64,000 nucleotides of DNA from Daphnia pulex (taxonomy: Eukaryota > Arthropoda > Branchiopoda > Diplostraca > Daphniidae): assembly GCF_021134715.1 (NCBI RefSeq), contig NC_060018.1, positions 12,045,501 through 12,109,500 on the forward strand, written 5' to 3'. Both the position numbers and the translations under genes were made by a program. Positions 4,157-64,000 of the stretch are shown piece after piece. Each line of letters opens with the position of its first letter. The first letter of the stretch is position 1. The notes under the pieces are model-generated. The model saw nothing but the letters and a program-made list of their open reading frames with translations, was not told the origin of the DNA and searched no databases.

Positions 4157-5745
4157 TCAATATTGTCGCTCCTCAGGCGTGAGTTTGACGAGCGTTTCAC
4201 TAATGTCCCAAAGCTTCTTCGCTAGGCCAACATCCATGCCCAACTTCGATGTTTGTGAGATCTGTGTCAAAAGTAAAAGTATGAAAGTGAATACAAAATT
4301 GCACCACGAGTATTACAAGAGAATTATTGACCTTGCAGTCGGTGAAATATTCTCCACTAACGTCGGCGACTTCGTCAGCCACAGCCAAGTGAATAGTGGT
4401 CTGAGCACCTTGTTTAACTGTCTGCAACCACAGTAAAATTAAAAATTAAGAACCGCAAATTAAAAATTATGAACTGCAAATTAATGACAAAATAAAAACA
4501 CTGCGAAATAATCTGCACATATGTAACTAATAACATCCATGAAAATAAAACCTACTTAAAAAAAAAGAAAGACATTACCTTGAAGAATATAGGAATTAGG
4601 GCGCTGACCACTGTCTGGAACACTATACAGAAAAATGAAAAGAAAAAAATTAGATTGAAAATAGTAAGGGTAGCAACATTCATTTGAATTGTTTACATGA
4701 TGAAGCGTTCCTGAATATTCCGGTATTAACGGCCCCAGGACATAAACAGTTGACAGTCACACCTATTTTGAATAAATCCAGTTTGAAAATTGCTGGCAAG
4801 CTTTATTTGAATATCGACACTCACCGGACTGGGAGATCAAATGGGCGAGGTGCCGAGTAGAAAGAATTATACTCAACTTTGAGTAATAATAACTAAAACC
4901 CAAAAATTCAAATAAAATTTCGTTAAAAAATGACAGCAAACAGATTAAAGAAGAATTTGAAATCTACATCGAGTTATAAAAGCTGCTGCCGTTGTGATAG
5001 AGTTCCGCATTTAAATTGTTCAAATCGAAAGTCTTGATAAAGGAATGAGCGACAGATGTGACGTTGATGATCCGGGACGGAGCTGATTTTTTCAACAGTC
5101 CTGAAGTGATTAGGATTAAAACAGCAAATAAGACTCAAGAGACTGTAAGTTAGGATAGCGCTCAAATAACATATACCTAGTAAGAGATTTGTTAACAAGA
5201 AGTGGCCGAAATAATTAGCCTGCATCTGATACTCGAGTCCGTCGTCCGTCAACTTTTTCTCCATTGTCACACATCCGGCGTTATTGATGAGGATGTCGAG
5301 TCGAGGCTCATTCTTCAGAATTTCAGAAGCGAATTGGCGAACGGACGCCAGAGATGCCAAATCAAGTTGATTGACAACCACATTATTGTTGCCCGATTCC
5401 CGAATAATGTCGTCTGCAAAAATGAGCGAATTTGAACGATAATTATAATTGATTGCGGTACGTAATTACGTAACTATTGCAAACTTTACCTCTAGCGTCG
5501 TCTGCTCTCTTGAGGTCCCGACAAGCGAGAATCACTCGAGCACCTCTCTTTGCCAAGTCGATGGCCGTTTCCTTGCCGATTCCCGAATTGCCTCCGGTGA
5601 TGATCACGGTTTTACCCGTCAGTTTGTTTCGACTTCTACACACGCCCATCGTCAGCACGAGACGAGCTTTCAAAACAGAGAGCACTAACAGAACGAGCAA
5701 TGCGATTTTCACCCAAAAAGGTAACGCCAACAGAAACGTCAACAT
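4157..5745 (-). CDS. Retinol dehydrogenase-like SDR (RDH11-14 type)
   Basis: This is a short-chain dehydrogenase/reductase that probably uses NADP(H) to reduce or oxidise retinoid-like or other lipid aldehydes or alcohols at a membrane. Exons in coding order are 5745-5490, 5413-5177, 5100-4968, 4892-4825, 4762-4697, 4622-4579, 4421-4332 and 4261-4157. All phases close, giving 332 aa, normal for RDH11-14. An N-terminal hydrophobic anchor covers about residues 5-32. The cofactor motif TGGNSGIG is at 50-57, NNAG at 129-132, the catalytic-region Ser at about 180 (INVTSVAHS) and YxxxK at 210-214 (YYYSK). The C-terminal part has the RDH signature QGAQTTIHLAVADEVADVSG. Exons 4 to 6 are tiny (44-68 nt), so a quick reading wrongly suggests the active site is missing. 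Substrate assignment is family inference only. It lies between IR-A and IR-B on the opposite strand. Confidence 0.9.
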
Positions 5746-6337: not shown

Positions 6338-6410
6338 GGTCCTGTGGCCCAATGGATAAGGCGCTTGCCTACGGAGCAAGAGATTCCAGGTTCGATCCCT
6401 GGCAGGATCG
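6338..6410 (+). tRNA. tRNA-Arg (anticodon ACG)
   Basis: This 73-nt cloverleaf has a 7-bp acceptor stem (GGTCCTG with CAGGATC, one G-T pair), discriminator G, a D-arm with AATGGATAA, anticodon stem CTTGC/GCAAG, loop CTACGGA (anticodon ACG, reading CGU and, after A-to-I editing, CGC and CGA), and T-arm CCAGG-TTCGATC-CCTGG. The internal A and B boxes are intact. There is no intron. It is the only complete copy among several related relics in the window. Confidence 0.93.
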
Positions 6411-7266: not shown

Positions 7267-9183
7267 ATGGTCATAAACAAGGGCAAATTTGCTCAATTTG
7301 CTCTTCTAATTTGTTTTTTGGTGTTGGTATTGGCAATCATGAACACAAGTAGCGATAGCGACGTCTATAATACCCCGACGAATCAAATGCAAATCAGTTT
7401 GCGAGGAAAGGAACTACGAGCTGTCACAGGCCATGTTATACAAAACATTTTTAATCATTATGTCTAACAACTAGGTTACTAAAACTGAATTATTAACTTT
7501 TCAGTTTCCACCCTACGTTTCCATTTGGCGGAATTCATCCGGCCACATTACTGGGTATTCAAACCACATGTATCATCTTTTACTCTATTTGTCTCAGAAG
7601 CTAAAGTTCACGTAAGCGATCTTTATCGGTTTGTTCACGAAAAGGCAGCAATTTTTACTGAGACCATTTTAACACCAATAATTAGTTACACAATATTCCC
7701 TGCTCGTGAAAACACTTTTGGAGTCAAAAATATCGGAATTTGGAACGGCGTTATAGGAGCCGTCGCCAATCTCGTAAGAACAAAACTACGTCGATTTCCA
7801 TTTTAACTTTTATTTTCTGAGATTAAAAAAAAAATTGTTTCACGAATTTAATCCAGGAAGCTGATATTGGTTTGGTGCCGGCGACCGTTTCACTGGAGAG
7901 ATACGAAGCCATTGAATTCAGTGGATTCGTGGGTGGTGACAACACCGGGATTCTTATCAAATATCCTGCCGCTAATATTTCGTTTACCAGCGCTTTCGAC
8001 GTGTTCTCGTTAACAGTAATATCTAACTCAATTTTTTTAAAAAAGTTATATCATTGAACTTCTTACCTGACAAAACGATTGCGTATTAATGAGTGCTGGC
8101 CGGTGATGAGCACTGGGCATTTTCTATGGCACTTGTATGGAGCCATCATTTCCCAAGGTAAAACTCACTCGATAGTTTTCGATATTTCTTACAGCAACTG
8201 CAGTTCAATTCTTCGCTTCATACAGGGAACCATTTTCAATGCCATCAACCATCGCAGAAACTTCTCGATGCGACCTGGTGTTTCGTAACTTTCGTCTTCG
8301 TCAACACTTACAACTCGACTCTGACGTCTTACATGTCGGTGACTTATCAAAGACCCGAAATCAATTCCTTTCGCGATTTGGCTACTGCCACACCCTACAA
8401 GGCCACTGTCTTAATCGGATCCATCCAAGACATCGATTTGCGGGTGATAATGGAGTTTATCTGTCTCAGTATAATCTAAATTAACTAGCACAAATTAATT
8501 TTGGTGGTTGTAATATTTAGCGATACCAAAATGGTGATCTGAAAATGATTGCCGATCGAATCCAGAAATGTGCGCTGGATTGCAGGAAATTTTCCTTCGA
8601 GGAACTGGCCATTTCCGTTTTAGAGGAAGAGAACTGCGTTTCGATTATAGTAATAAGCGCTATATTATCTATTCATATTTTATTCTTATAACTCGATATA
8701 AATTTCCTTAATTCAGCCCTGGGCTGCTGGCATAGCTTGTCTGAAGAAGTTCAATTCCAAAAGCTGTCGTCTCGCTATAGCGTTCGAGTCAACGGTGTGG
8801 AAGCCCATGTACTTGGCCGTTCCTAAATCGAGTCCCTACAAAGAAGAAATCAACCGAGCGTTAGTATTTGATAATTATTTGTTCGGAATAGGATGACACA
8901 GTTTCTAAAAAAAATTTTGGCGGGTAATGTGTACTATATTGATTGATTATGTAGGTCGTTATGGTTTTTTGACACTGGACTAAGGGAATATTGGTTAAAA
9001 GCGTATGAAAAACCGCCCGAACAGTGTCGACTGGACTACAACAGCAAAGGCGTTGCGGCCAAGAGATCCAACAATCAAATTAAAATCGAACATATTTATC
9101 TACCATTTCTGATTCTTCTTGGTGGCTATTTACTAGCATTCATGCAGTTTCTAAGGGAGAAATTCATCTGCCCCCTTCGGTAA
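7267..9183 (+). pseudogene. Ionotropic receptor IR-B, first membrane segment deleted
   Basis: This close paralog of IR-A and IR-C has these recognisable coding exons: 7267-7434, 7505-7611, 7686-7773, 7857-8015, a remnant about 8061-8157, 8226-8443 (or to 8454), 8521-8649, 8717-8859 and 8955-9183. The signal peptide, S1 with the ligand-site Arg (SLERYEAIEF), pore/M3 (VNTYNSTLTSYMSV), S2 and M4 are all open and spliceable. Exon 5 lacks its 5' part, which in IR-A and IR-C begins at the acceptor and encodes M1. Reading from the only nearby AG (8045/8046) in the required phase gives a stop within four codons. One base is also missing at the exon 6 donor used by IR-A, although an upstream GT (8444) would restore phase. 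Without M1 the subunit should not form a channel, so a recent pseudogene is most likely. An unusual splice form cannot be excluded. Confidence 0.8.
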
Positions 9184-14735: not shown

Positions 14736-17700
14736 TCACTTTTGGAAGTTGCGATTTCTTGCCGTAATTACCGACACCCGTTCAGGACTTGTTTCGCTGG
14801 AAGCTCCCAAAATAACAACAGGATCGACTGCCTCTAGCATAATAGTGTGATCTGCTCCCTCCTCTACTTCAGAATGGTGCTGATCCGCATGCGAACTGGA
14901 AACGAGCATTGTTCCTCCGTGGTTTCCCGTCAAAAGTCGCAAACCGGATTCAGAGTTCATAAGATTCCTGCTCAGCTCGTCCCGGTTAGACTCGCTCACG
15001 GTTAACAGATGCGACAAATTCATCTCCTGAGTCAATGCGATCCCTTGGACCTGTCCATCGCTCTGGGTCAGGAAAAGATCGCTCAAGTCCCTCAAGTCCA
15101 GCAACGTGGTCGAGTCCAATGTTGGCAACTAAAAGAAAAGGAATTTTTTTTTTTAACTTTCAATTCAACTGACACGAACTAGAACTAGCGATATGTATTA
15201 CTTGGACATTGCCGGCTTCGTCCAAGTGGAATTTCACAGTCAAATTGCCCAGGGATCCACTTTGATCGCCCAAAGAATTGTGTTGATTCGACAGGTCGCC
15301 AGATATCGCGATGACTTTCGCCAGATGAGCTTCAGAATCCATGTCTCCGTTCAACACTCGCTACAAAGAAAAAAATATGCGCTTAGCAACAACGAAGAAT
15401 AAATAAAACTACGAAATAATTTGGGTGGATTTTACCTGTTTGTTCGACTTAGCTTTTAATTTCCTCTTGTTGGCGGCAGAAGACACTGTGCGGATCGCAC
15501 CGGGTTTACCGACTGCCTGGGCAGCTTTCCGGTGACTCTTGAGGTGAGATTGTCGGTGACCGGTTGTCCGGAAGAACAAATTACACTCCGGACACTTGAA
15601 GGGTTTGTCCCCTAGAAAAGAAAAGGCCGTGAATCTAAACTATTCAAAATAATGAATTCCTCGACTTGCCTGTGTGAATTCTCATGTGGATTCGAAGCGT
15701 GTTCCGGCATGAGTAAAGGCCGTTGCAAAGCTCACACGACACAGTCTTGTTACCATTGGCAGAATGAGTACGCGAATGAGCCGTCAAAGTGGATTTGAGC
15801 GTGAAACTTTTATCACATATTTCGCAGGCGAAAGGACGTTCCCCCGTGTGAGTTCTCATATGACGAACAAGATCCGATTGTTTTCTAAACACAACAGTAA
15901 AAAAAAATAATTAGAATTGCAAGGCCTTTGTCGATTACATATTCAACCCTTATTACTTGAAACTCTTGTTACACTGAGTGCACTCTTTAAGGCTTTTCGA
16001 AATCTTGTCTATAACGTTGGCAACACCTCCTTGAGTGGAAGAAGTATCAGTAAATATAGCCGAGTCCTGATCTTTAAAGCTCGTTTCCACTGTAACAATT
16101 AGTAAAGTAGATTAAGACTTTCTTTCCATTTATAATGTTAATAGGAAATGTAATCGATAACTCCTACGTACGAGCATTAGTTTGAGTGCATCCTTCTTCG
16201 GTGTGACGTAAGTAGAGCTGAAACGACAGAAATTTGAGCCCGCACGAATCGCACACGCAGTGCATAGGTTCTGGGTCTGGGTCGGTGTGAGACTTTTCGT
16301 GAGCCTATTAAACCCAAGGTCGCTCAAATGACGTGTCAATAAAAGGCTTTCCTTAAGTACGTTAACGGATTCAGACAACTTACCGTCAAAGCTTGAGCGG
16401 TTGCGAATGATTTGGTGCAGATAGGGCAAACGTGGGATTTATTAGCTCCACAGTTACTTCGCATGTGGGTCTTTAAATGGGAAGCTCGTTTAAATTCTCG
16501 TCCGCATGAAAGACATCTTTTCCGACATTCAACAAGCAAACATGAAGTACACCAAATCAAATCTAAATTTAAAAACAAAATGTACATACTTGGTTTCTTC
16601 TCTTTTAGAATCCTCCGTTGGTGCAGTAAGTAGTTCAGATTCCTGCGAATGGAAACAGAAAATAGTTGAAGATTAACTGCCTCCTTGTTTCAATGTACGG
16701 ATTTTCCAACCTGGAAAGTAAAGCTTTGCGACAGAACTTGGTTGTCGTACAATGTTGGAAGATCAGAGTGGGCTGGAGCGTCGGTAACATCGGACGCCTC
16801 CTCACCATCGAATTCCATGCCTAGCTGCATGGGACCAAAGGAGGAAGCATCACTCAAGGTCGACGTCGTGCAAGGAAGACTATGTACGTCGGTGACTTCT
16901 CTCGTTCCATTTAAAGTAGATTCGTCACTTGGCTGAGTTGTGCTGCTATCAGCTGGCATGTTGCTTGGCTCGTAATTCAACTAGAAAATCAAACAAACAT
17001 GGAATTCAATTATTTTAAAGCTATTGATAAAAATAATTACCAAATCCCAATGTGATTCGGTTTGGGTTTCAGACATTGGTGGTAATGTTGTTGAATTTTC
17101 GAGCGCCTCCGCATCAATGGAAACTTCAGGCAGTTCTGAAGAGGACTGCGCTTGTTGCTGCAAACAATAAAAAAAAAATCGATTAGCTTGTAACTGTAAA
17201 TGAACCCATTTGCGAGTTTCTTTACCATATGGATGACTTCGTTTGTGTGGGTCCCTACGTGTTTTTTACAAACCGAATAAGTCTTGAAGGACTTTTGGCA
17301 GTAAGGACATATAAAAGGCCTGGAATCACTATGGCTTGCTTTATGTCGATTCAGTGTACCCCGCGTAGTAAAACTGCGATTGCATTCCGAGCATTGAAAG
17401 TTGGGAGCAGACGTTCTTTCGTGCGTTAGATGGTGAGCTTTGAGAACCCACTTGGAAACAAAATTCCTATGAAAGATTAATCAATCAATTTAATGAAGCA
17501 CAGTTATTTTTAACCTAATTTTGTTTAACAACAAAAAGAAACTAACCGGAGGCAGATGTTGCAAGTGAAAGGTTTCAATCCCGAATGAGTTTGTATGTGT
17601 TGGTTGAGATGAGCAGATTTCTTGAAAGCAGCGCCACACTGCAAACATTTAAAAGGACGGATTTGACGCGTGCCGTTTTTCTCCTCTGATCTGCTGAACA

Positions 17701-20649
17701 GCTGGGCATTCACCGGTTGTCTCGGGAGGATTCCTAATAGGATAAACATTAATTGTTCAACATGCCAACTGGTTTGCAGCTTTGCAATGAATTCATTACC
17801 CGACTCGGTTAGTTCTAATGGTTCAGCCAGCGTCACAGACATATTTGCACCCGTTTTTAAGCTATCGCTCGCTATTCGTGGCTCTTCCGATGTGAGAGCA
17901 GTCTTAGTTTTGCTTTTGGCAGATCGCTGGTGAGCCTGGAGGTGTACTTTGAAATAACTCCGATGTCGAAATTGCTTGCCACAGAACTGACAGCAATAAG
18001 GTCGCTGCCCAGTATGGAGCCTAATTTAGTCATGTGTAATACAATATTATTCAGACTGCAGACGTAAACCGACTACGATTAACTGGAACTCACCTTTGAT
18101 GAAGAACAAGGCTTGCCTGACTGGCCAACTTTTTACAACAGACAGGGCACTCAAACGCCTTGGTCCCATTGTGCGAATTCAAGTGAGACATCAAAGTGGA
18201 TTTGAGACGGAACGTTTTGTGACAAACAGGGCACTGTCGAGACAAAATTTGGTTATTAGGAATTTCGGTATTGAATGTACACTCAACAAAGAAAATACCT
18301 TATAAGGCATAATGGAGTTGTGAATACGAAGGTGACGAACCAGATCCAGCGGTTTCTTGAACCGCTTCGGACAGTTTCCGCACAATAGGAAGCGAACAGA
18401 ATTCTCCATGCGATATTCAACAACATATTGCCTTTAAAAAAATATATCGTAAACTTGCCATTCTACATTGCTTTAACACGGGATACGTAAATTTATTAGA
18501 CTCACACTAGTTTAGCTGGATTGGCTCTATCTACGAGAGTAGTGGTGCAGGCACTTCGTTCTTTTGTTTTATTTTGTTCTCCGTTCCGCTGATCTGAGAG
18601 ACAAATGTAACCCATGTACGGATGAAACCTCAGAAGAAAATAATGAATAAGATTTCTGTCACACCTGAATTCTCCGTGCCACCATCTGAAAGTGGTAATC
18701 CGATACGTTCCAGAGCCTTTTGAAGGATATCGTTCTTGTGGCTGAGATCGTCCCGTGGCGCTGAGTCATTGTCATTTATATTCAGAGCTGCCATGGAATC
18801 TGAATTTTGCAATTGTGGCATTGTCAAATGCGTCTAATAAAGAAGGAAATAGTCATTAAAGAAAAAAAAAGGCAAAACCTATATAAACTTAAAACACACA
18901 CACCTGGATGCCATCACAATGAAATTTGCTCATATGAGATGTCAAACTCGATACATTCCTGAATACGGCACTGCAATCATCGCAGCGATGAACGTCTCCT
19001 TGTTGTTCGCTACTGGCAAGAAGGTGTAGACGCCGAACATGAGCTCGAAGGTTTCCTACAGCATCATATTCCGTTTATTAGAATGCACACAATTAACAAA
19101 AATTTAAACATGCTAGATACCTTTCTGACTTGAGGCGTAAGGACACAACGTGCATTGGTAGGGTTTTTCCCGTCCATGAATGGCTTTTTGGTGGCTAACC
19201 AGCGAATTCTTCTGACTGAAACCCCGATTGCATTGATCACACTATCAAATGAATGAAACAATTATTTGAGTATCGAAATTGATTATGTAATATTTTTAAA
19301 ATTGAGTAACCTTGTAAGGCCGCTCGCCTGTATGAACTCGCTCATGTCGAGCACGGAGACTCGGCTTATCGAATTCCATAGAGCAGTGAGAGCATCTGAA
19401 ACGTGGTTTTCCAACAACTTTGTTGTTTTTACTTTTTTTCTTGCAAGACAAGATAGAATTCACCTGTTTAACAAATCAAAGTTGTAAAAAGACTCAATTA
19501 AAATATTCCTACAGTTTCGGTACCTTCTGATGATATCTCGAATGCTCCTTTAGTGCCCTCATAGTGTTGAAGTTGTCATGGCATTGCTTACAGGGGAAGA
19601 TTTTTATAACAGGATCTGTTTCACGATTCGCCGAACCGTTAAATGAGTGATTCAGTTCGGCAAGCGTTAAAGGTGCGGTTTTGTTCAGTTGGTGTTCTTC
19701 TTCTATGTGACGCCGTAAAGCCCTCATAGTCTCGAATTCGTTATCGCACTGCTGACAGGTAAGTGTATCTTCCTCAATGTGAAGGGAGATGTGAGCTTTT
19801 AAACTGGCCAGTCTTGAAAATTTCTTCCCACACTCTGGACACTGACTTGATGTATTGTGTAAGGCCATATGAAGTTTAAGATTTTTCTATTTGTTAATGA
19901 AATAACATGACATAAATAAAATTGGTATTATGGTAATTAGTAGTAGTGATTTGGCAAGACAAGTCTTACCTCGACATTAAACGAAAGGTTACAGTTGGGG
20001 CATTGGTGAGGCTTCTTGTCTAAATGTTGCAGCTGATGCCTTTTATAGTCTGCATTTTTCTTAAATGTAGCTCCACACTCTGAGCATGATAACACATCAT
20101 TTATCTAAATAAGTGATGTTGATAATTAACATGAACAACATTGTCTACATACATTAGATGCAATTACCATAGAAGTTTCGACATGAAAACTGTCAGGATG
20201 ATTTCTGCCAACTTGTATTTCTGTCAAATTGGGTTGCTCACCACCTTCAATCTCATCTTGAAGGGGTGAGCTTGTGATGATAGCTGCACCATTTTCAGAA
20301 ACAATGCCAACCTTGTACGACATAAAAACAAATTCCAAATAAAAAGGCTTTGTGCATCATTTAGATGTGCTGGCAAGTGGCAACTAACCTGTGAAGAATC
20401 TATGAACAGCACCTGCACTCCATTCCCTGTTTTCAGCAGCTTGTTGATATCAAAATCTGTGGGAAATATGATTGAGCCAGCACTTTCGGCATCCAAAATT
20501 TCAGTTCCTCCTATCAGAAATGCAATTCTATCAAGCCATTACACAATTTGGAAATAGTTTTTCTAGTTATTACCTAGTGAGTCTGACAGGACGAAACTGA
20601 ATGCAGTGGCTGGATTAGTTCCATCACAATCATTCGTGGATAACTCCAT
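14736..20649 (-). CDS. Large C2H2 zinc-finger protein (about 24 fingers)
   Basis: This is a probable nuclear DNA-binding regulator. I reconstruct 24 coding exons: 20649-20574, 20510-20389, 20311-20168, 20104-19970, 19886-19524, 19463-19311, 19241-19121, 19055-18904, 18833-18665, 18593-18506, 18431-18299, 18233-18094, 18020-17547, 17466-17226, 17157-17041, 16980-16711, 16642-16590, 16516-16384, 16304-16172, 16089-15957, 15884-15670, 15611-15436, 15360-15202 and 15128-14736. All phases close, giving 1,430 aa, or 1,408 if an internal 66-nt intron (17799-17734) is removed. About 24 C2H2 fingers occur in clusters, for example [21 protein letters not shown] and [21 protein letters not shown]. At least two are atypical, ending in Cys instead of the last His. 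An acidic N-terminus, Ser/Thr-rich linkers and a finger-free C-terminal 180 residues complete it. The exon 21 donor is GC (ACAG|GCAAGT). The layout recalls ZNF236-type proteins, but I cannot confirm orthology. Confidence 0.85.
17734..17799 (-). other. 66-nt in-frame intron or retained exonic segment
   Basis: Within exon 13 of the zinc-finger gene, a GTAATG donor (17799) and an ATTAG acceptor (17734) bound 66 nt with no stop in frame. Removing it joins ELTESG to ILPRQPV without changing frame. The segment reads as hydrophobic residues unlike the surrounding linker, which suggests an intron. Retention would still give an open protein, so both isoforms are possible. Confidence 0.5.
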
Positions 20650-20914
20650 ATTAGCTTAGTTTTTTCTTTGAAAATTTAAAACTGTGTCAGTCAAGTGTTT
20701 TCAGAAATCGCCATCCGAACCAAAATTCTCCAAAAAAAACAACATGTCGTCTGTAAGGATACGACGTTGTCGTACGATCAAAATAAACCCAAATAAAGCG
20801 ACGGAAATGAGTGAAATGTTTGATTGCACTTGGCAACGTGCTAACAAGCGTGCAGAAGAACCAAAATTTGTGTTTGCGGTGTTTTGTGAACGAATTTTGT
20901 TTACTGTTTTCAAA
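20650..20914. promoter_or_regulatory. Bidirectional promoter, zinc-finger gene and RBM42
   Basis: Only 265 bp separate the start codons of two divergent genes, so both 5' UTRs and core promoters must share it. The RBM42 frame is open upstream of its chosen ATG back to an ATG at 20684, so a longer N-terminus is formally possible. No TATA box is evident. Confidence 0.6.
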
Positions 20915-23559
20915 ATGGCTAGTTTTCCTCAAAGACAAATGCAAGATGAAATGGAAAGGTAAAAATTCTAAAGAATTAAGACTTCCGTAAATTTTAGTAT
21001 TAAAAAATATTTTTGAAATGCGACAGGTTTGAGGCCGAAATCTCCAACTCCACGTCTAAACCTAGCATACCATCTGTTTTAAAACCAAACATGATACGTC
21101 CTACTTCTGGGGCACCAGGAGTTTTTCAGCAAAAGTTTCAGCCTCCCACACACTTTCTGCCTACACAGCTTCAAAGGGCTGGAGTACGCCCAACAGTTTC
21201 TTCTATCTCCCAGCCGTTTTCTTCTTCCACATCTGCACCACCTTCCAGCATAGCTTCAAGTGTCGGAACAGCCATCATCAGTAACAAACCTGTTCTTTAT
21301 CTACCTGAAAAAGAGGCTAAGGCATCATCATCAACTTCTGCAACTGCGAATTTGATCAAAACTCCACAGCCTGTAGCCAAAAAGGCAAAAATTGAAGCCA
21401 AATCCCCAACTAAAGTTGTTCCAACAGCAGCAGTAAGACTAGCAATTAACATTTTGTAAAACTTGTTGATAGAACTTTCTATGTTTTCAGAGCGGACCAT
21501 CTGTTTTGAGGGCCCCATCTTCTACGGTTGGTTCAGCAACTGTCAAAGCTGGAACAGAAGAACCCAAAGTACAAAAAATGAAGAAACCCAAAAAATTTGT
21601 CAGGGCGGCTGGTGGTACAGTTTGGCAAGACGACTCGCTGCTGGAATGGGATCCAAGTAATTTTTTCTTCACACTACATGATTTTTAACTTTCCTATTTG
21701 ATCATTTCCTTTCATTTTCAGATGACTACCGAATCTTTTGCGGTGATCTTGGCAATGATGTAACAGATGAGGTACTGGCCCGCGTTTTCGGCAAATTTCC
21801 GTCATTTCAGAAGGCAAAAGTGATCAGAGACGCACGTTCCAATAAAACGAAAGGCTTTGGCTTCGTGAGCTTCAAAGATCCTACGGATTTCACCCGAGCT
21901 ATGAGAGAGATGAACGGTAAGTGATCTCCCAACAATTACATATTTTTTTTTTTTTTTTGGTAGTATGAGACGAGGGAAACATTTGGAATTTCCATTCAGT
22001 TTATTAGTTTTTCGATCATTTCATTTGTGGGAATGTGTATGGTAAAGCATCAATCGTGTGTGGTGCATGAACAAAAATAATTTTCATGGCAATTAAAAAT
22101 CTTCATTCATGGCTTCGGCTGGCTCGAACTCGGGCTCGTTGAAATCGTTTTCAACCTGGTAATAATCTAATCAGAAAATAGTTTGACGAAAATTAGATTT
22201 TTGTTTAAAAAAAAAACACTTAAAAATGAACCAAAGTCAACCTTTATTTTCGTAGTTGAACTTTTCGTAGGGAAATCCTTGTGCATTCGTTTCGTCATAA
22301 GACTTGGATAGCTGTAAAAAGTGAGAGAGCCAAAACGTCAACTTAACGACGAGACATTTTTAGGTATAATAATAATCTAGTTTCATTACCCATCCACCGG
22401 ATCGTTTGACGGCCAAACTGTTCTTCGTATTACCGCCGGGGTAACCGTCTTTGCGCAACGGGCTTATGAAGAAGGGCGGCTGTCGCTTGTTATAGAAATT
22501 GGGCAGCAATTGATGGTTCCAGACGAGTAGCGGTTGCAAATTAGAATGAGTCTTGTTATTCCCGCGCCGAATGAGTCGTCTTGGGATGTCTCGTTCGCTC
22601 ACTGGCGGTTCGCTATGGCTATTTATTCTTGGGAGGTACCGTCTGTTTTTAATCATTCCCAATCAGATTAACTTTTTATCCTTGTTCCGCTGCACTCAAA
22701 CTTAAAACTACAGGATCGACACAAAATTACAAATCCAACAGAGGGTTGGGCGTAAGGATTAGAGGAATATAAGGGTCTAAAACTTACGGTTGTCGGATAG
22801 ACTGGTGATAAATGAGTATGGGATTGTGCGATCGTAGTTTTTTGAACGACTGGCGCTTCTCCAATTGACCCATCAAGGAGAAGGAATCCTCCAGCGAATC
22901 GCCGCCACGGCTGGTTGAGTCGGCCACGGTACAAGTGCTGATCAGGGCCACGAGGCAGATGGTTCGCAAAATCAAATGCAACTCCATGTTCTGTGTTGTT
23001 GTTTTTCCGTTTTTTATCGAGAAGGTTTCTTTCCAATTTGATTTCCTGTTTTTTTGGCGGGGGGCAACAAGGTGTCAATGGCAGCGCCACTTAACCTGCC
23101 ATCGACTGTAGAAAGTTGAGTTCGCTCTGAGGGCATGAACGACCCCGCTATGGGTTCTTATAGTCTCTCTTTTGAGGGGGATGCACATGCGCCTGAAACG
23201 TCGTTTGATGCGGTTGATCATTTTCTCCCCTACTCCGGGCCGTGCCCCGCTTGTTTGTCTTTGAGCCGGATTGCTGCTGCCCTAGCCATCCATCCGACAG
23301 TTTGGTTTACATCATGCTGCCCGAGTTGGCATTTTGTGTGTTGGGTGATGAAGCCGTATTATTATGTTGGCTGGATTCGATCTAGATTGGATGTCAGATG
23401 ATTTTTCTCATTTTGTTTGTCTTCTTTTTTCGCTCAACAGGCAAGTACGTGGGAAGTCGGCCCATCAAATTGCGCAAGAGCAATTGGAAGAACCGCAACA
23501 TTGACGAGGTGAAGAAGCGACAAAAGGAAAAGGACGTCCTGCTGGGCAAGCGCCGATGA
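20915..23559 (+). CDS. RBM42: RNA-binding protein 42 (RBM42)
   Basis: This is an RRM protein; family members act in mRNA binding and splicing and associate with hnRNP K in vertebrates. Exons are 20915-20958, 21027-21432, 21491-21656, 21722-21916 and 23441-23559, giving 309 aa with all phases closed. The N-terminus (QMQDEMERFEAEIS) resembles the RBM42 start, followed by a Pro/Ser/Ala-rich linker (about 25-185). The RRM spans about 206-275, with RNP2 at about 210-215 (IFCGDL) and RNP1 at 249-256 (KGFGFVSF). The C-terminus GKYVGSRPIKLRKSNWKNRN and the lysine-rich tail are hallmark RBM42 features. An upstream in-frame ATG at 20684 would add 77 residues, but 20915 fits the family better. The fourth intron (1,524 bp) is far longer than the others and hosts an antisense gene. 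Confidence 0.93.
22093..22987 (-). CDS. Nested secreted propeptide, candidate neuropeptide precursor
   Basis: This complete gene lies inside RBM42 intron 4, antisense to it. Exons in coding order are 22987-22788, 22642-22390, 22311-22242 and 22166-22093, with GT-AG introns and phases 2, 0 and 1, giving 198 aa. Residues 1-22 form a signal peptide (MELHLILRTICLVALISTCT...). The mature part has no cysteine and no further membrane segment. Paired basic sites lie at KR44-45, KK49-50, RR88-89, RR92-93, KR119-120, RK130-131 and KR146-147. Cleavage at two of the KR sites would expose N-terminal Gln (QSF at 46, QPPFF at 121), suited to pyroglutamate formation. The last 45 residues are acidic and Tyr/Asn/Glu-rich. 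No Gly-Lys/Arg amidation site is seen. I do not recognise the family. A secreted prepropeptide processed by prohormone convertases is the best reading; a cuticle or other secreted protein is the alternative. Confidence 0.72.
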
Positions 23560-48113: not shown

Positions 48114-51100
48114 ATGTACGACAACATGACAACTTACATGCTCTCGGATTCGCCGGAATCCGGATCGGGATCCAATCACCAAATCGGCGGAGGCAATTCG
48201 AGTTCCAACGCTCCGTCGCTGATCGGCTCGCCGAGATCGACGCCCGTCTTCGGCAACAACGGCCACGCCCTCAAGGTCCGTTATTGACAATGGCCCGTCT
48301 CTGCTGGACGGGAAAATATTTTTCAAACCAAAAATTATAAATTTTGTTTGAACAGACAAACGGCGGTTTGATGATGAACGGATCATCGTCCGGCGCTAAG
48401 GAGATGGGCGGCCATCAGATGTGGAATAACGTCGGCCATCCGCAGCAGCAGCAGATGCAGTCGCCCGTCGCCCAGCCACCGCTGCCACCGCCGCACCATC
48501 ACCGCAACAACGTCATTGTGGACGACCGCGAGGAGAACCAATCGCTGCGCTCCGATCACTCCAATTCCATGGCCGGCGGCCTGTCGTCTTCCAATCGGGC
48601 CCACTCCAGATCCTCACGCCACCAGCACCAGCACAGCAACCGGCCGCTGGCCTCGACCCAGTCCGGCAAGAGCACCAGTTCCGGCCACCACCGATCGCAC
48701 AGGTCCGTTTCTTTTATAACTAAAATCTGACTCAAATAAAAACAAGACGGGCCAGGTGTTCTGGCGTGGCCCGTCTTGAGCCTTAAAAGGATTGAACGAA
48801 AAAGACGGACCAGCCGTTGTTAAATTTGTTTTGTTCCTTGCCTTTCATGGAGCTGCAACGTTTATCCTATCCTTAATGCTGTTGATATCAAAGTAAATGA
48901 ACCTGCAGTCCTGCAGTCGATGGCGTCATAATTTCAAATCTAAAAATGTTTTTTGTTTGTGGTTGTTGTTTGGCTTTGACAGGAGCGCAAGGGCGGGACA
49001 ACACCGGGATCACCCGATTTCATCGTCGCCCATGCAAACGTCGGCCGTCCTCGGCGACCGCAGCAACAACCAGCACCAAGAAGTCATCGAAGTCCAGATC
49101 CTACCTCAGGTAAAAAAAAACTTTTTGTTGTTTTATTATTCAAATTTTGGAATATTTTCAATGAGATTCAAATATTCCCGCGCTATTTTTGTTTGTGGAA
49201 TATAAACGGCGCCGTTGATCGATTCCCCCTGCATAGAAAAGTCTTTCGTGTAAACAGAAATATTTAGATATGTATAGAATCCGTCCAACCAAAAAGCCGC
49301 GCCGGACCTTGTAAATCGGCGTCCGTCCGCACACACAAAAGAAAAAGAAAAAATGGAAATGAATTTTTTTGATTCAAATGAATTTGATGTTGCGCAATTG
49401 ATTGAATGGGCTGGTGATTCACACAACAGGATGACGGATGGGGCGACAACGCCACGGCTCTGACGGGCAACACGTCCGTGGCCTCCGGATCGATGGATGA
49501 CGTGTCGAGGCTGGGCGGCGGAGACGGCGGACGCGGTGGCGGAGGCGACGGAGGGCCTAACGATCCGGCCTGGTCGTCCAACGCCATGGGCCAGTTTCAA
49601 AGCCAAGGCGGCCACCTTGGCTGGAATTTTAAATGCCAGCGCTACCTGGGCTCCATCACGGCCGCCGTCTTGGCCGTCCTGGCCGTCATGACGCCCGTGG
49701 CCATGGTCCTCCTGCCGCGGATGCAGATCGTTCCACTCCGCTCTGAGCAGCTGCGCTGCCCGGCCGAGTGCGAGGGACTGCTCATCACCCTGACCGTCAA
49801 GCTGGTCCTGCTGGTCCTGGGCAGCTGGGCCGTTTTCTGGCGGCCCACCAGGGCCACCATGCCGCGCATCTTCTTCCTCAGGACCCTGGTCCTCCTCCTG
49901 GTCTTCGTCACCACTTTCGCCTATTGCCTTTTCTACGGTGTTCGGGTGGTCGAGCAACAGGATCAGCTGGACTACAAGGTAAATTACATATCCATTTCAA
50001 TTTCATTTGTTATTTATTTTTGGGTTCCAGGCCGGTCCAGGGCCGGCATGTCGTGCAACAGCGGGCGGTGTAATAGTTTTCTTGGTTGGTTGGTTGGTTT
50101 ATTCTGTGGGTGGTGAGTGAGTTCAAATCACAGCTTGAACTTATCTTTTTTTTTCACTCGGACGGAATAAACAAATATGGCGGATGCATTCCGTGTCTGC
50201 CCGCCGTTTTATTTCATCTCTCGACGAATTTATTACAACATTTTTGTGTTTTTTTGTTTTATTTATTTTTGGTTTTATCCAGGCGATTGTGACGTTCGCT
50301 TTGTCGCTGGTCGACGCTCTTTTGTTTGTCCACTATGCTGCCGTTTTGCTCCTGGAGATCCGCCAAATGCCGCCCAGGTATTACCTACACGTCATCCGCA
50401 GTCCCGATGGCATTTCCAGGGGCTACCCGATCGGAGCCGTAAGCAAATTTTGTTGTTTTTCTTATTTTATTTCGATCGTTTAGATTTGTTTTTTTCTTCT
50501 TGGCCATCAGATATCGATCCAGCGGGCCGCCGTCTGGTTGCTGGACAAGTACTACACGGAATTTCCGATTTACAACCCGTTCCTGGAGCGGCTGCCGCCC
50601 AGGAGGAGCCGCTCAAAGTTGGCCCACTCGTCCTCGTTCAAATTCTACGACCTGGACGCCCAGAACAATCACGGCTCCCTCAATCCGGTAAGTCCACCCG
50701 ACGAAATTTCATTTCAACTTTTTTTCTTATTTTAAACTAAAAATAATTAAAACTATACTTAAAATTAATTGAATTAAACTTAAAATTAAAATTTGAATTT
50801 TTTTTGTTGGGTGGCGGGAAATGTTCCAGGGTAATGCCCGTGGCGTTTTGTCGACGACCAGCTCATCGACGACGGCTCGTCGCAACAATTCCAGCCACAA
50901 CGAGAGATTTTACGAAGAGCACGAATACGAACGACGTTTGAAAAAGAGGCGCGCCCGTTTGGTCACGTCCGCCGAAGAGGCTTTCACCCACATCCGACGA
51001 CTTCAAGCGGAACCAGGTACATGTCAACAATTATACACAACCAAATGTCTTTTTTCCCTCCTTATCCTTGCGGCAATATTCAACACCAATAAATATTAAA

Positions 51101-51893
51101 ATTCTTTTATTTAAAAAATGTTTTTTTGGGGGTGGAATAAAAGGACCGGCCGTTCCGATGGATCCTTACGAAGCGGCCCAGGCGATTTTCCCGTCGATGG
51201 CCCGCCCGTTGCAAAAGTACCTGAGGATCACGCGCCAGCAGCCGCGCCACACGGTCGAGTCCATCCTCCAGCACCTGGCCATCTGCCTCAGTCACGACCT
51301 CTCCGCCCGCGCCTTTGTCGAAAAGTTCCTGGCTGCCTCGCCCGTCATGCAGGTATAACTCGTCCGCATTTCTTTTTTTATTTTATTTTATTTAAAAAAA
51401 AAAAGCGGACCCCATTTTTCATTCGGAATTCCCGACGTCCGTGAAGGGCCACTTTGGTTCATCGTAAATTTCCCCTCAATCTCTTTTCAAATTTCCCGCT
51501 TTAAAAATTTTCCAACAAAATTCCAACATTTGATTGGCAGTCAATTTATTTATGGCCAATAGCTTTTCGAATTTGGCGCGGAAAAATGTCCACAAAATAT
51601 TTGATCGACTTTGAATTTCCCGCTGAAAATAAAAATTTAAAATGTTTGAATTTAATTTTTGGCGGTTTAAATAGAACGACAAGGAAAAGTGTCCGATTCA
51701 GACGTGGTCGCTGGTGTGCGACGTCCTCCTGTCGCGTGGCATCGAGGACGGGACCGTGTTCCAGCTGAGGCAGGGCGACGTCTCGCTCCTTTGCCGCATC
51801 TCCAACTTGCCGCACTTCAACATCACCGAGGAGATCATCGAACCCAAATCCAACAAGTTTGTCCTGCGGCTCAGTTCCGAAACTTCCGTCTGA
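48114..51893 (+). CDS. Vang: Van Gogh/strabismus planar cell polarity protein
   Basis: This four-pass membrane protein is a core component of the planar cell polarity pathway; it binds Prickle at one side of the cell and works with Frizzled, Flamingo and Dishevelled. Exons are 48114-48275, 48356-48702, 48983-49109, 49430-49978, 50283-50438, 50511-50687, 50830-51016, 51144-51352 and 51675-51893, giving 710 aa with all phases closed. The family core begins about residue 213 ([19 protein letters not shown]). Two pairs of membrane segments follow between about 270 and 430. Cytoplasmic blocks [35 protein letters not shown] and [19 protein letters not shown] are diagnostic, and the C-terminal PDZ-binding motif ETSV is intact (707-710). 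The N-terminus is about 190 residues of Ser, Gly, Gln and His-rich sequence, making the protein clearly longer than the roughly 520-aa vertebrate homologs. The first two coding exons both use a GTCCGT donor. AATAAA follows at 51930-51935. Confidence 0.95.
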
Positions 51894-58506: not shown

Positions 58507-58748
58507 GAATTGGACCTTGCTGTCTAGCGTCTAGTCTACTGTGTACTCTGAAGAGAACTGAAACCACACGTGGGAGTGAGATGCGCATTCAATATTGATT
58601 TGAATCTGCAATCGATGCGAATCGCGTGCAAACATATACGTCTTAACTCAACGGTAAACAGCATCGCATGGATGTAGAAAACGAGATATAAACGAACGAG
58701 TTTAGCAAGTAAACGAGGATCTTTCAGCCAAAGAGGATCGCAAAGGAA

Positions 58749-60769
58749 ATGATCGCAACCAGAGAAATAAAATTTGCGTTTCTGGTTGTAGGTTCGGTGA
58801 TTTTTATTGGAATCACGAACGCAACTAACAGCAGCGATGTCTACTTGCGAGGCAGTTTGCAGGGAAAGGAACTACGAGTCGTTACAGGACATGTAGGCTA
58901 CACATATTTGAAAAAGATTTAAAAAATTAAATTGTAAGCTACTATATTGGTATATGCGTGAATTATTAACTTTTCAGTTTCCACCCTACATTTCCATTTT
59001 GCGGAATTCATCCGGCCACATTACTGGGTATTCACACCACATGTATCATCTTTTACTCTACTTGTCGCAGAAGCTAAAGTTCACGTAAGTATTTATTGGT
59101 TTGTTCACGAAAACCAGCATTTGTGACTGAGACCATTTTTAACACCAATAATTATAGTTACAAAATATTCCCTGCTCGTGAAAACACCTTGGGAGTTAAG
59201 AACAACGGAATTTGGAACGGCGTTATAGGAGCCGTCGCTAATCTCGTACGAAAATAGCAAAATTATTAAAATAAGTCGATTTCAATATTCAACTTTTATT
59301 ATTTCTGAAATTAATCAAACAATTTGTTTAAACAAAAAATTAATCCAGGAAGCCGATATCGGTTTATTGCCATTGACTGTCTCACTGGAGCGGTACGAAG
59401 CCATTGAATTCTGTGGATTCGTACGCGGCGACAACACCGGCATCCTTGTCAAATATCCCGACGCCAACATTTCATTTACCAGCGCCTTCGACGTCTTTTC
59501 GATCGGAGTAATAAACTACTACGACTATGTAGGTTATTCACAAACAAATAATATGGTAAATCACTTCGCAGATATGGATCGGAGGGATATCTTCCGGAAT
59601 AGGAATCTGTGCCCTTTCTGTCATTTTTTCTTACCTGACAAAACGATTGCGCATTAACGATTGGCCGGCGATGAGTGCTGAGCATTTTTTATGGCACTTG
59701 TATGGAACCACGATTTCTCAAGGTATGAATCAAAATGATATTGTTCATTGGTGTCGATCAATCTCGCACTATATACAGCTGCTGTCAGCACAGTCAATTC
59801 TTCACTTTGTTGAAAAGGGGTATATTTTCCGTGCCGACAACCATCGCAGAAACTTCTCGTTGCGACCTGGTGTTTCGCAACTTTTGTCTTCGTCAACATT
59901 TACAACTCGACTTTGAGGTCTTACATGTCGGTGACTTATCAAAGACCCGAAATCAATTCCTTTCGCGATTTGGCTACTGCCACAAATTACAAGGCCACTG
60001 TCTTAATCGGATCTATTCAAGACATCGATATGCGGGTGGTGATGGAGGTTTATCTGTCTCAGTATATAATCTAAATTAACTAGCACAAATTAATTTTGGC
60101 GGTTGTAATAGCGATACCAAAATGGTGATCTGAAAATGATCGCCGATCGAGTCAAGAAATGTGCACTGGATTGCAGGAAATTCTCCTTCGATGAACTGGC
60201 CGTTTCGGTTTTAGAGCAAGAGAACTGCGTTTCCATTTTAGTTATATAAGCTAATTTTTTATCTTATTCATATTTGTTTCTTTTATAATTCGATATTCAT
60301 TTCTCGAATGCAACAGCCATTTTCAGCTGGCGTAGCTCTCCTGGGAAAGTACAATTTCCAAAGAAGTTGCCGTCTGGCTATGGCGTTCGAGTCAACTTCG
60401 TGGAAGCCCATGTACTTGGCCGTTCCTAAATCGAGTCCCTACAAAGAAGAAATCCAACGAGCGTAAGAGTATTTGATAATTATTTAATCGTGTAAGATGA
60501 CATTCAGCCACTTAAAATAATTATGGATTAAATCATTTAGATCGTTGTGGTTCTATGACACTGGACTGCGGGATCACTGGTTCGATGTCTATGAGAAACC
60601 GCCCGGACAGTGTCGACTGGACTACAACAGCAAGGGCGTTGCGACCAAGAGATCCAGCAATCAAATCAAACTCGAACAGTTGCATCTACCATTTCTGATT
60701 CTTTTTGGTGGCTATTTAATAGCCTTCATGCAGTTTCTAAGGGAGAAATTCATCTGCCCACTTCAATAA
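58749..60769 (+). CDS. Ionotropic receptor IR-C (intact, nine exons)
   Basis: This is an ionotropic-receptor subunit closely related to IR-A and IR-B but lying about 50 kb away. Exons are 58749-58892, 58978-59084, 59158-59245, 59349-59507, 59572-59722, 59818-60047, 60112-60240, 60317-60462 and 60541-60769, giving 460 aa with all phases closed. It has a signal peptide, S1 with the ligand-site Arg (SLERYEAIEF, about R128), an intact M1 (IWIGGISSGIGICALSVIF), the pore loop and M3, S2 (PMYLAVPKSSPYKEE) and M4 (LPFLILFGGYLIAFMQF), ending shortly after as REKFICPLQ. M3 carries an Arg (VNIYNSTLRSYMSV, R250, codon AGG at 59916) where IR-A and IR-B have Thr. Exon 6 could instead end 12 nt earlier at CGG|GTGGTG, in phase. 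AATAAA lies at 60818-60823. It is the likely source or sister of the partial copy at 63333. Confidence 0.9.
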
Positions 60770-61346
60770 TAAGGTGTGATTTTTTTTAATAACTATAATC
60801 CACAAGCAACTCTGTACAATAAAGTTCTTATTTAATCTCCTTAAATTTGGAACAAGTGTCGATCTGTAGGCCTACTGAAAGTTTAAAGCGATTACAATAG
60901 ATTACAATAAAATGGTAACCACCTCATTTCATCTTCAACAAATATGAAATGTTTATCATGAAAGTGAAAGCTCAAACGGCGGAATATAATGCCAGTCATA
61001 CCCGGTCACACGCGAGAATGAATGAATTAATTTGACCACCAAAATTGTTCTACGAAGTTCAAAAGTTAGGACAGACAACAAATGTTTATAGGAGGTCCGC
61101 ATCGGATGAAACTTTATACTTAATTAAATTAATATGGTCCTGTGGCCCAATGGATAAGGCGCAACAATCGATCCCACATTTATTTCCGTTTTTTTTTTTC
61201 TTTTATCAACAACAGGCTGTACTGAAATATCGTGTATTCATGCGAAAACAAGCACTACATCACCTCCAAGAATAATTATGCCGTTCGTTAGCCGAAGCCA
61301 TTTGAACCACCTCGTATAATGCCATATCAACAAAAGTCACTTTAAC
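60770..61346. other. Spacer after IR-C
   Basis: This contains the IR-C 3' UTR with AATAAA at 60818-60823 and the tRNA-Arg fragment listed separately. No other gene is seen. Confidence 0.5.
61136..61162 (+). pseudogene. Truncated tRNA-Arg fragment
   Basis: The first 27 nt (acceptor strand and D-arm) are identical to the tRNA at 6338, including the preceding AATAT. The sequence then breaks off into unrelated DNA, with only a short T-arm-like ATCGATCCC after it. It lies about 370 bp downstream of IR-C, similar to the relic downstream of IR-A. Confidence 0.75.
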
Positions 61347-62075
61347 TCACTTATTCGCTATTGAAACGAGATGGTTTAATTTTTGTACGAACTGTTGGCT
61401 GTTGTTAGTCAATAACGAGTAAGGCTTGTCTAAAAAATCTTCTTTGGTGAGGATCCTTATCAACTGCGCAATACTTAGCCGAACCTTTTTAGTGCACTGA
61501 ATAAGGTGCAAATCCTTTGCGTCACATCTGGGAACACCTGAGAGTTTGTTCAGTACAAATGTTTCGTTGCTGGATAACTGGACGACAACGCCTTTGACTT
61601 GACGTTCGGCGGAAACGTAGTAGTATCTTCTTCCATCCAATATTTTGAAAACATTAAATGCGGGATGCATTATTTTTCTAGTTGATGTAGTATGGTAGGT
61701 TTTAAATTCAACTACATTGGCTTGAGGGGCAAGAAGACCAGAACATAAGTGCTGGAACAAACGCCTTGGTTCAATACAAAGTTCACCTTCTTCCGGAATA
61801 CAAAATTCTCTTTCTTCATACGTTTTCCATCTCAAACAGTTGTACAGAAAGATTTTTTTCGTGTTGGTTTCATTATTGGCCAAAATTTTCATTTCCGCTC
61901 TTGCTTTTGCTCTTGCTTCGTCTTCGTGAGTCAACATATACATCCTTTCGGCGTAACGTTCCCTATCAGCACTCAATCTCGATTCCCTCGCTTCCAGCAC
62001 TTCTTCATTTCTTCTTTCGTGTCGAAGCGCCCTTATATAACCTCGTATCCACACTTCCCTTTCGCAACTGCAATC
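61347..62075 (-). CDS. Orphan exon-sized ORF, unknown protein
   Basis: An open frame of 242 codons ends with a stop at 61347. It extends upstream to a possible acceptor (CCCACAG) at 62076-62078; no ATG lies near its 5' edge, so it may be a terminal exon or start at an internal Met (for example in ERMYMLTHEDEARAKARAEM). The N-terminal 70 residues are highly charged (Arg, Glu, Ala) and look helical or coiled-coil. The rest is mixed, with hydrophobic and Tyr-rich strands (RRYYYVSAERQVKGVVVQLS) and five or more Cys. There is no signal peptide or membrane segment. I do not recognise the family. Amino-acid composition looks protein-like rather than simple-sequence. It lies within the unit between IR-C and its copy and may be duplicated beyond the window. 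Confidence 0.45.
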   Translation of the reverse strand, partial: DCSCEREVWIRGYIRALRHERRNEEVLEARESRLSADRERYAERMYMLTHEDEARAKARAEMKILANNETNTKKIFLYNCLRWKTYEEREFCIPEEGELCIEPRRLFQHLCSGLLAPQANVVEFKTYHTTSTRKIMHPAFNVFKILDGRRYYYVSAERQVKGVVVQLSSNETFVLNKLSGVPRCDAKDLHLIQCTKKVRLSIAQLIRILTKEDFLDKPYSLLTNNSQQFVQKLNHLVSIANK

Positions 62076-62084
62076 CTGTGGGAT

Positions 62085-62394
62085 ATTTCATTCACAGTTC
62101 AATATCCTTGCAAGTTAATTACGTTTAGTTTGCTCAACTCATATTTTCCTATTTTTACACATAAAGTTCATTGATTGAAATTTAAAAATAACCACCCTTT
62201 AGTTTAATAACTGCAAACTTAAATGCAATTCTGGTAGTTGTGTCATGGTTGGGGCTTGGTTGCGTCACGGCGATGCTATAGACATCTGGTGGTGATTTCA
62301 TTCACAGTTCAATATCCTTGCAAGTTAATTACGTTTAGTTTGCTCAATTCATATTTTCCTATTTTTACACATAAAGTTCAATGACTAAAATCCA
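62085..62394. repeat. Direct repeat of about 95 bp, two copies
   Basis: Positions 62085 to about 62180 and 62295 to about 62390 are nearly identical, offset by 210 bp, and diverge at their right ends. The left copy overlaps the acceptor side of the orphan ORF. A short phrase around CATCTGGTGGTGAT recurs at about 62284, 62413 and 62490. Confidence 0.8.
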
Positions 62395-62412
62395 TAAATA
62401 ATAAAATGCAAT

Positions 62413-62660
62413 TGACATCTGGTGGTGATGCTGGTTGTTGCGTCATGTTTGGGACCTCAAAGATTGCGTCATCACGGCGACGCTATAGACATCTGGTGGT
62501 GATTGGCATGTTTGGGCATGTTTGGGCATGTTTAGGCAGCGACTGGTATAAGCTCCTCCCCCTTGAGACATGAATAAGCTCCTCCCCCAAAATGTTCGTG
62601 ACATTATCCGTGACATTGTGCGTGACATGAATAAGCTCCTCCCCCAGAAGCTTGTTCTTT
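62413..62660. repeat. Cluster of short tandem and dispersed repeats
   Basis: This contains three GGCATGTTT[G/A]G units (about 62506-62536), three copies of AAGCTCCTCCCCC and several GTGACAT units. Degenerate, nested copies suggest repeated slippage or the edge of a mobile element. Confidence 0.7.
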
Positions 62661-63090
62661 TATTATATATAGAAAAGCAAGCTTATCAGCTCGCCGCGAA
62701 GGGATAGTCGTAAGCCAGTTAAAAACTGTCTTAAATGACAAATTCAGGGCCTATTGTTAGGTCGGATTGTTAGGTCGGACTTATTCACAATTCATCCTTT
62801 TCGCAAGTCGCAACCGCCAGATGTCACTAGTCGTCAAGCAATTATTTTAGCAGTTTTTCATTATTTACAGTAGAACTAATTAAGTAAATGGAATTATTTT
62901 TGTTCTGGTCGCACCGCATATTTTTTGTCTAATTTTTAAGACCAAAATGTCTGAAATCTGTCGTGAAACGCCCGAGCTAGGGAGCGTTACATACAGACAG
63001 ACAAAGTGACATGGTTTTTATTTTTCTGCGTATGCGATTATTAGCTTCGCCCTTAGGGCTCGCAATAAAACGACGCGAAAATAAAACGAC
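62648..63090. mobile_element. Possible Helitron-like non-autonomous element
   Basis: A hairpin at 62648-62684 (AAGCTTG...CAAGCTT with inner CTTTT/AAAAG) enclosing TTATTATATATA is followed by a tandem GTTAGGTCGGA motif, a CAGACAGACAGAC run near 62993-63003 and a TTTTTATTTT stretch. This combination recalls Helitron/Helentron-type elements, but no transposase or diagnostic end is visible. The right limit coincides with the IR duplication breakpoint at 63090/63091. Confidence 0.25.
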
Positions 63091-64000
63091 GAATTGGACC
63101 TTGCTGTCTAGCGTCTAGTCTACTGTGTACTCTGAAGAGAACTGAAACCACACGTGGGAGTGAGATGCGCATTCAATATTGATTTGAATCTGCAATCGAT
63201 GCGAATCGCGTGCAAACATATACGTCTTAACTCAACGGTAAACAGCATCGCATGGATGTAGAAAACGAGATATAAACGAACGAGTTTAGCAAGTAAACGA
63301 GGATCTTTCAGCCAAAGAGGATCGCAAAGGAAATGATCGCAACCAGAGAAATAAAATTTGCGTTTCTGGTTGTAGGTTCGGTGATTTTTATTGGAATCAC
63401 GAACGCAACTAACAGCAGCGATGTCTACTTGCGAGGCAGTTTGCAGGGAAAGGAACTACGAGTCGTTACAGGACATGTAGGCTACACATATTTGAAAAAG
63501 ATTTAAAAAATTAAATTGTAAGCTACTATATTGGTATATGCGTGAATTATTAACTTTTCAGTTTCCACCCTACATTTCCATTTTGCGGAATTCATCCGGC
63601 CACATTACTGGGTATTCACACCACATGTATAATCTTTTACTCTACTTGTCGCAGAAGCTAAAGTTCACGTAAGTATTTATTGGTTTGTTCACGAAAACCA
63701 GCATTTGTGACTGAGACCATTTTTAACACCAATAATTATAGTTACAAAATATTCCCTGCTCGTGAAAACACCTTGGGAGTTAAGAACAACGGAATTTGGA
63801 ACGGCGTTATAGGAGCCGTCGCTAATCTCGTACGAAAATAGCAAAATTATTAAAATAAGTCGATTTCAATATTCAACTTTTATTATTTCTGAAATTAATC
63901 AAACAATTTGTTTAAACAAAAAATTAATCCAGGAAGCCGATATCGGTTTATTGCCATTGACTGTCTCACTGGAGCGGTACGAAGCCATTGAATTCTGTGG
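63091..64000. repeat. Second copy of the IR-C region (segmental duplication)
   Basis: 63091-64000 aligns without gaps to 58507-59416 at a constant offset of 4,584 bp. I noticed one substitution (C at 59047, A at 63631). The left breakpoint is sharp: sequences before GAATTGGACC differ. The copy continues past the window end. Confidence 0.95.
63333..64000 (+). CDS. Ionotropic receptor IR-C' (5' part, cut by window end)
   Basis: This is a duplicate of IR-C. Exons 63333-63476, 63562-63668 and 63742-63829 and the first 68 nt of exon 4 (63933-64000) are visible. All splice sites and the frame are preserved. The only coding change seen is His to Asn in exon 2 (CAT to AAT at 63631). Everything from the second half of S1 onward is outside the window, so intactness cannot be judged. 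Confidence 0.9.

Follow-up and report, generated by a model that had tools for sequence, protein, structure and literature searches.

The long fourth intron of the RBM42 gene of Daphnia pulex contains a spliced antisense reading frame that is, in all likelihood, a real gene. Given a real gene, its 198-aa product can be predicted with good confidence to be secreted. Overall, there is about an even prospect that this product is a convertase-cut secreted propeptide, which would make it an orphan candidate among neuropeptides or peptide hormones. The elements of the locus are as follows, in the coordinates of the window (the whole analysed stretch of 64,000 nucleotides).

21917-23440, plus strand: host intron of 1524 bp, number 4 of RBM42; the flanking exons join into the RBM42 RRM
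23155..23162, minus strand: TATA-like box TATAAGAA, ~175 bp before the ATG, within the host intron
22093..22987, minus strand: coding span, ATG to TAA, of the predicted 198-aa secreted propeptide, from exon join and translation
22788..22987, minus strand: exon 1 CDS; predicted signal peptide 1-22, acidic spacer 23-43, first KR/Q
22390..22642, minus strand: exon 2 CDS; two RR pairs, an N-K-T sequon, NKR/QPPFF and VKR/SGGW
22242..22311, minus strand: exon 3 CDS, uncertain; may be skipped, alternative or absent
22093..22166, minus strand: exon 4 CDS, with the acidic C-terminus; another acceptor would start this exon at 22155
21997..22005, minus strand: AATAAA within AATAAACTG, possible polyadenylation signal ~90 bp past the stop, in the host intron

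The joined C-terminal exons of the host, on the plus strand, contain an RRM_1 domain (Pfam), and in PDB they match 'RNA-binding protein 42' best (E 1.1e-58). By eye, the RBM42 introns lie at 20959-21026 (68 bp), 21433-21490 (58 bp), 21657-21721 (65 bp) and 21917-23440; the contrast drawn in the earlier note between a 1.5 kb host intron and others below 70 bp thus holds, at 1524 bp against 58-68 bp for the three preceding introns, the long one being number 4 if RBM42 starts, as assumed here, at the ATG near 20914. All four exons of the nested gene are inside this intron, on the minus strand, opposite to RBM42 on the plus strand, where the same note had placed them. Judging by sequence features, the start, exons, stop and AATAAA (itself at 22005-22000, minus strand) all fall within 21997-23162. 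The TATA-like box TATAAGAA, presumably a variant of the TATA box, and the AATAAA are motif matches only and count as putative control signals; with both inside the host intron, a complete transcription unit could fit there. An intron repeat scan, Rfam, and scans for bacterial-type promoters and terminators yielded nothing informative on the nested gene. According to excerpts of a study of nested genes (PMC8467205), such genes mostly occupy the strand opposite to their host, and, as far as those excerpts describe the animal opposite-strand cases, the internal gene lies wholly within one intron, as it does here; compared with them, there is nothing unusual about this pair, the host intron being long enough to contain the gene. 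A search for literature pairing RBM42 with Daphnia found none.

Several other features were recognised in the window:

4977-5465, minus strand: short-chain dehydrogenase (Pfam)
6338-6410, plus strand: tRNA (Rfam)
8162-8476, plus strand: ligand-gated ion channel fragment (Pfam)
17528-18025, minus strand: C2H2 zinc-finger gene (Pfam)
50942-51355, plus strand: Strabismus exon (Pfam)

At its far end, the window enters a tandem array with a unit of ~4.58 kb (58507-64000), which runs on into the L014 stretch (contig 2 from 12110000) and which could have arisen by recent tandem duplication or consist of arrayed mobile elements. The segment 58507-59416 recurs at 63091-64000 with 99.9% identity, and additional copies in L014 comprise two long pieces with 99.6-99.8% identity and one with 96.9%. 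The array holds repeated minus-strand open reading frames, at 61350-62087, with no Pfam match, and at 58539-58871 and 63123-63455.

The case for a real gene comes from a comparison with chance and from codon usage. The best ATG-to-stop chain was sought on the antisense strand of the intron (21917-23441) and in dinucleotide shuffles of the same sequence, with models scored by generic splice matrices, which are approximate, together with a codon model trained on the Daphnia genome itself. By score alone, the best real model was matched by 4 of 300 shuffles in a first run and reached by 36 of 6000 in a larger one with a lower splice threshold, and both acceptor 1 and donor 3 are weak; these points leave some room for a chance or decayed reading frame with no functional gene, a reading that we nevertheless consider quite improbable because length and score did not coincide by chance. 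Lengths of 172 and 198 aa were attained in only two and one of the 6000 shuffles, respectively, and none of the 6000 matched both the score and the 172-aa length of the best model, which lacks exon 3. Nor does chance sit easily with 198 codons free of stops, headed by a signal peptide that starts exactly at the ATG: an equally hydrophobic signal peptide was found in 3/6000 shuffles at any length and in 0/6000 together with at least 150 aa.

Codon usage speaks against chance as well. The synonymous codon score is 15.8, compared with a null of -9.9 (sd 5.2) and with no value as high in 5000 draws, a signal to which local G+C may contribute, since the null was built from genome-wide trinucleotides and the host intron is G+C-rich. 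Coding G+C by codon position is 0.50/0.38/0.59, that of the gene's own introns 0.32, and that of the host intron upstream of the nested gene 0.47. In a rebuilt codon model, the true frame is the best of six in all four exons, these frame scores being in part a restatement of the absence of stops; exon 4 has the highest score of the four (+7.7), and in exon 3 the true frame is ahead by just 1.4 bits. Exon 2 is open for 84 codons, and the other two minus-strand frames carry 6 and 3 stops. The rebuilt model was self-trained on 22 ORFs kept from 102 (15138 bases), with low-entropy ORFs, duplicates and the L027 and L028 stretches left out; the first model, which was discarded, had repeat arrays among its training ORFs and put the true frame first in three of the four exons. 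L027 and L028 (contig 5, 4000000-4019999) contain very long repeat arrays with open frames of ~200-980 codons (..STPEHARARQ..), and such frames skew naive codon models.

The gene model itself is firmer at the front than at the back. The earlier note had described four exons with correct splice sites and closed phases; of this, the GT-AG joins and the 198 codons stand, and the exon 2-3-4 junctions are provisional. The ATG lies in the context AACATGG, with an in-frame stop upstream; the introns measure 145, 78 and 75 bp, all GT...AG; and the CDS of 597 nt encodes 198 aa plus the TAA. The exon 1 donor GTAAGT scores +2.44 bits. For exon 2, the acceptor is weak (-1.02) and the donor is at +0.40; exon 3 combines a strong acceptor (+4.73) with a weak donor, G/GTTGAC (-2.22); and the two acceptors of exon 4 score 2.11 and 2.84. 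Under uniform scoring, the four-exon model comes to 10.5 bits, skipping of exon 3 with the last exon starting at 22155 gives 11.8 bits, and a model that ends in exon 3 gives 6.3 bits. The search optimum, at 13.1 bits and 172 aa, ends exon 2 at 22398, starts the next exon at 22166 and has no exon 3, its ATG and stop being identical to those of the 198-aa model. Common to the three best models are exon 1, exon 2 to 22398 and the final coding stretch 22155-22093, and confidence in exons 1 and 2 is higher than in the 3' third of the model. The minus-strand acceptors 22155 and 22166 are 11 bases apart, an arrangement open to a coupled alternative exon; the start at 22166 is in frame with exon 3 and that at 22155 with exon 2 joined directly, so exon 3 may be alternative.

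No relative emerged from the searches. A search of the genome of origin (133,188,837 bases, 13 contigs) for a paralogue returned four matches with E up to 10, all of them the locus itself, and neither Pfam nor PDB had a match for the 198-aa product, which agrees with the earlier note, where it matched no peptide family that could be named. As a control, Pfam recognised the RPCH precursor of the same genome and missed a 45-aa piece of that genome's orcokinin precursor, so that a Pfam miss is weak evidence for novelty; NCBIfam likewise gave no match, which, for a prokaryote library, says little. A scan of bacterial and archaeal genome contigs with the 84 residues of exon 2, aimed at possible contaminating animal DNA, produced 157 pattern matches, none of which was confirmed. 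Among 12 strings from the product used to search the literature, 11 had no occurrence, and the 6-letter GGWLSK appeared only in phage-display work. A 2011 study of the D. pulex peptidome reportedly contains no such peptide.

The features of the propeptide that the earlier note had singled out are all there. Residues 1-22 form a clear predicted signal peptide by a simple in-house rule rather than SignalP (hydrophobicity 2.61 over 10 residues; -3/-1 rule satisfied), with the predicted cut TVA/DS after A22; the mature part is devoid of cysteine, the only two (C11 and C19) being in the signal peptide. There are seven paired-basic sites, namely, KR 44-45, 119-120 and 146-147, KK 49-50, RR 88-89 and 92-93, and RK 130-131; Gln follows the first and second of the three KR; and the tail is acidic, with a net charge of -10 over the last 50 residues. 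By net charges of segments, basic and acidic stretches are separate along the chain. When the mature part was shuffled 20000 times, p was 0.031 for seven basic pairs, 0.045 for three KR and, for the double occurrence of KRQ, a feature picked after being seen, 0.00055. None of the seven basic pairs in the 198-aa sequence is preceded by the Gly that signals amidation, and therefore no amidated product is expected; such a Gly before the cleavage site is common but not obligatory in neuropeptide precursors. Internal peptide repeats are not significant: the seeming degenerate copies NPILIYHQ, QPLLVWNHQ and QPPFFISP were rejected, since 62 of 200 shuffles equalled or bettered the best self-alignment.

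With arthropod neuropeptide and hormone precursors, such as the RPCH/AKH precursor of the same genome (L029), the nested product shares the signal peptide, the short length of the precursor, predicted cuts at KR and Gln that can become pGlu at the N-terminus of a fragment; it differs from them in lacking an amidation Gly, any known peptide motif, significant repeated copies and a match to Pfam Adipokin_hormo, the family that detects the RPCH precursor. The hallmark of AKH/RPCH is an 8-10 residue pGlu...W-amide directly after the signal peptide, which is absent from the nested product and which Pfam detects in the L029 ORF and not here. By pattern search, a single place in the genome encodes QVNFSTSW followed by Gly-Lys-Arg, and PMC5537346 reports QVNFSTSW as the RPCH peptide of D. 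pulex. Hyrg and limostatin are proposed or known lineage-restricted neuroendocrine proteins (excerpts of PMC4888303); as described there, they are, like the nested product, small secreted candidates that have a restricted distribution and stand apart from the classical families, and Hyrg, unlike the nested product, has no classical convertase sites.

Two places in the genome, ~256 kb apart on contig 9, encode orcokinins, which we take to be those of D. pulex; no literature that prints these sequences was found. The orcokinin hallmark is an NxDEIDR core, as a rule present several times between KR sites, and the classic peptide is NFDEIDRSGFGFN. Orcokinins are non-amidated peptides cut at KR, as those of the nested product are predicted to be, and exon 3 encodes SYDETNAQGFPYE, with a spacing weakly reminiscent of NFDEIDRSGFGFN, such that a divergent orcokinin-type precursor could be envisaged; only 25 of 5000 shuffles matched its ungapped score to the classic peptide. 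We regard this as highly improbable, because the likeness disappears against the genome's own copies in L007, NLDEIDRSNFGTF and NLDEIDRSDFGRF, for which 4111 and 4408 of 5000 shuffles, respectively, did as well or better, and because there is one copy, within the least certain exon and with no flanking basic pair. Lacking the NxDEIDR core, tandem copies and any likeness to the versions in its own genome, the nested product was rejected as an orcokinin. The second orcokinin place (L008, ~1485-1590), inspected by eye, has one whole copy, the start of the preceding copy being replaced by a T-rich stretch; it differs in this from L007, with its two whole copies, and is possibly a partial duplicate.

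If the nested gene encodes a signalling precursor, its path from gene to peptide can be sketched from the sequence. We infer that a TATA-type promoter of its own, on the strand opposite RBM42, would drive the gene, and that the propeptide would enter the secretory pathway and lose its signal peptide after A22. Cleavage by prohormone convertases would follow at KR44-45, KR119-120 and KR146-147, with the RRLIRR cluster 88-93 as a possible further site; the three KR sites have no Arg at P4 and so are not of the furin type. The likely fragments, from the N-terminus, are the acidic spacer (23-43), a basic stretch blocked by pGlu (46-87), GNNKTHSNLQPLLVWNHQLLPNFYN (94-118), pQPPFFISPLRKDGYPGGNTKNSLAV (121-145) and, at the C-terminus, an acidic peptide rich in Tyr (148-198) that might undergo tyrosine sulphation. 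At least one of them, with the pGlu peptide 121-145 as the most plausible choice, would serve as a non-amidated signal. In its most specific form, which we put forward tentatively, the proposal is of an unrecognised branchiopod peptide-hormone gene of no known neuropeptide family that arose in, or moved into, RBM42 intron 4, with the pGlu-blocked, non-amidated 121-145 as the signal and an acidic peptide whose sequence might depend on whether exon 3 is included or skipped.

The earlier note had concluded that the gene encodes one or more new peptide hormones. Of this, the gene and its predicted secretion find good internal support; the hormone is only suggested, with basic pairs in slight excess, no amidation Gly and no repeats. 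The anatomy of the basic pairs fits a convertase-cut, non-amidated precursor, which these figures by themselves fail to distinguish from some other basic protein that is secreted. A real secreted protein without a signalling role, for example in cuticle, mucus or defence, in which the basic pairs occur by coincidence or take part in just one maturation cut, is a serious if unlikely alternative: it accommodates a p of 0.031 for the basic pairs as well as the lack of an amidation site, of significant repeats and of Pfam or PDB matches that would point to signalling, and fits less well with a mature part devoid of Cys, with the lack of low-complexity or cuticle-type repeats by eye, with Gln after two KR sites, and with basic and acidic segments kept apart. 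Internal genes of nested pairs in Drosophila are frequently specific to the testis (excerpts of PMC8467205), which lends support to a young gene active in testis or other male tissue and encoding a rapidly evolving secreted reproductive peptide, as does the lack of a relative in its own genome; we hold this to be decidedly unlikely, given processing sites that suit a convertase-cut signal equally well or better.

The nested gene is a good orphan candidate and can be tested, though it is no established hormone; its predicted fragments are short enough for synthesis and direct detection. In the excerpts of Veenstra's account (PMC4888303), the decapod or insect lineages gained very few neuropeptides, and nearly all new neuropeptide genes there seem to have come from duplication of older ones, with hyrg as a possible exception. 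Should the signalling-precursor reading be true, the nested gene would run counter to this in a model crustacean, as a precursor for which a search of its own genome found no parent gene.
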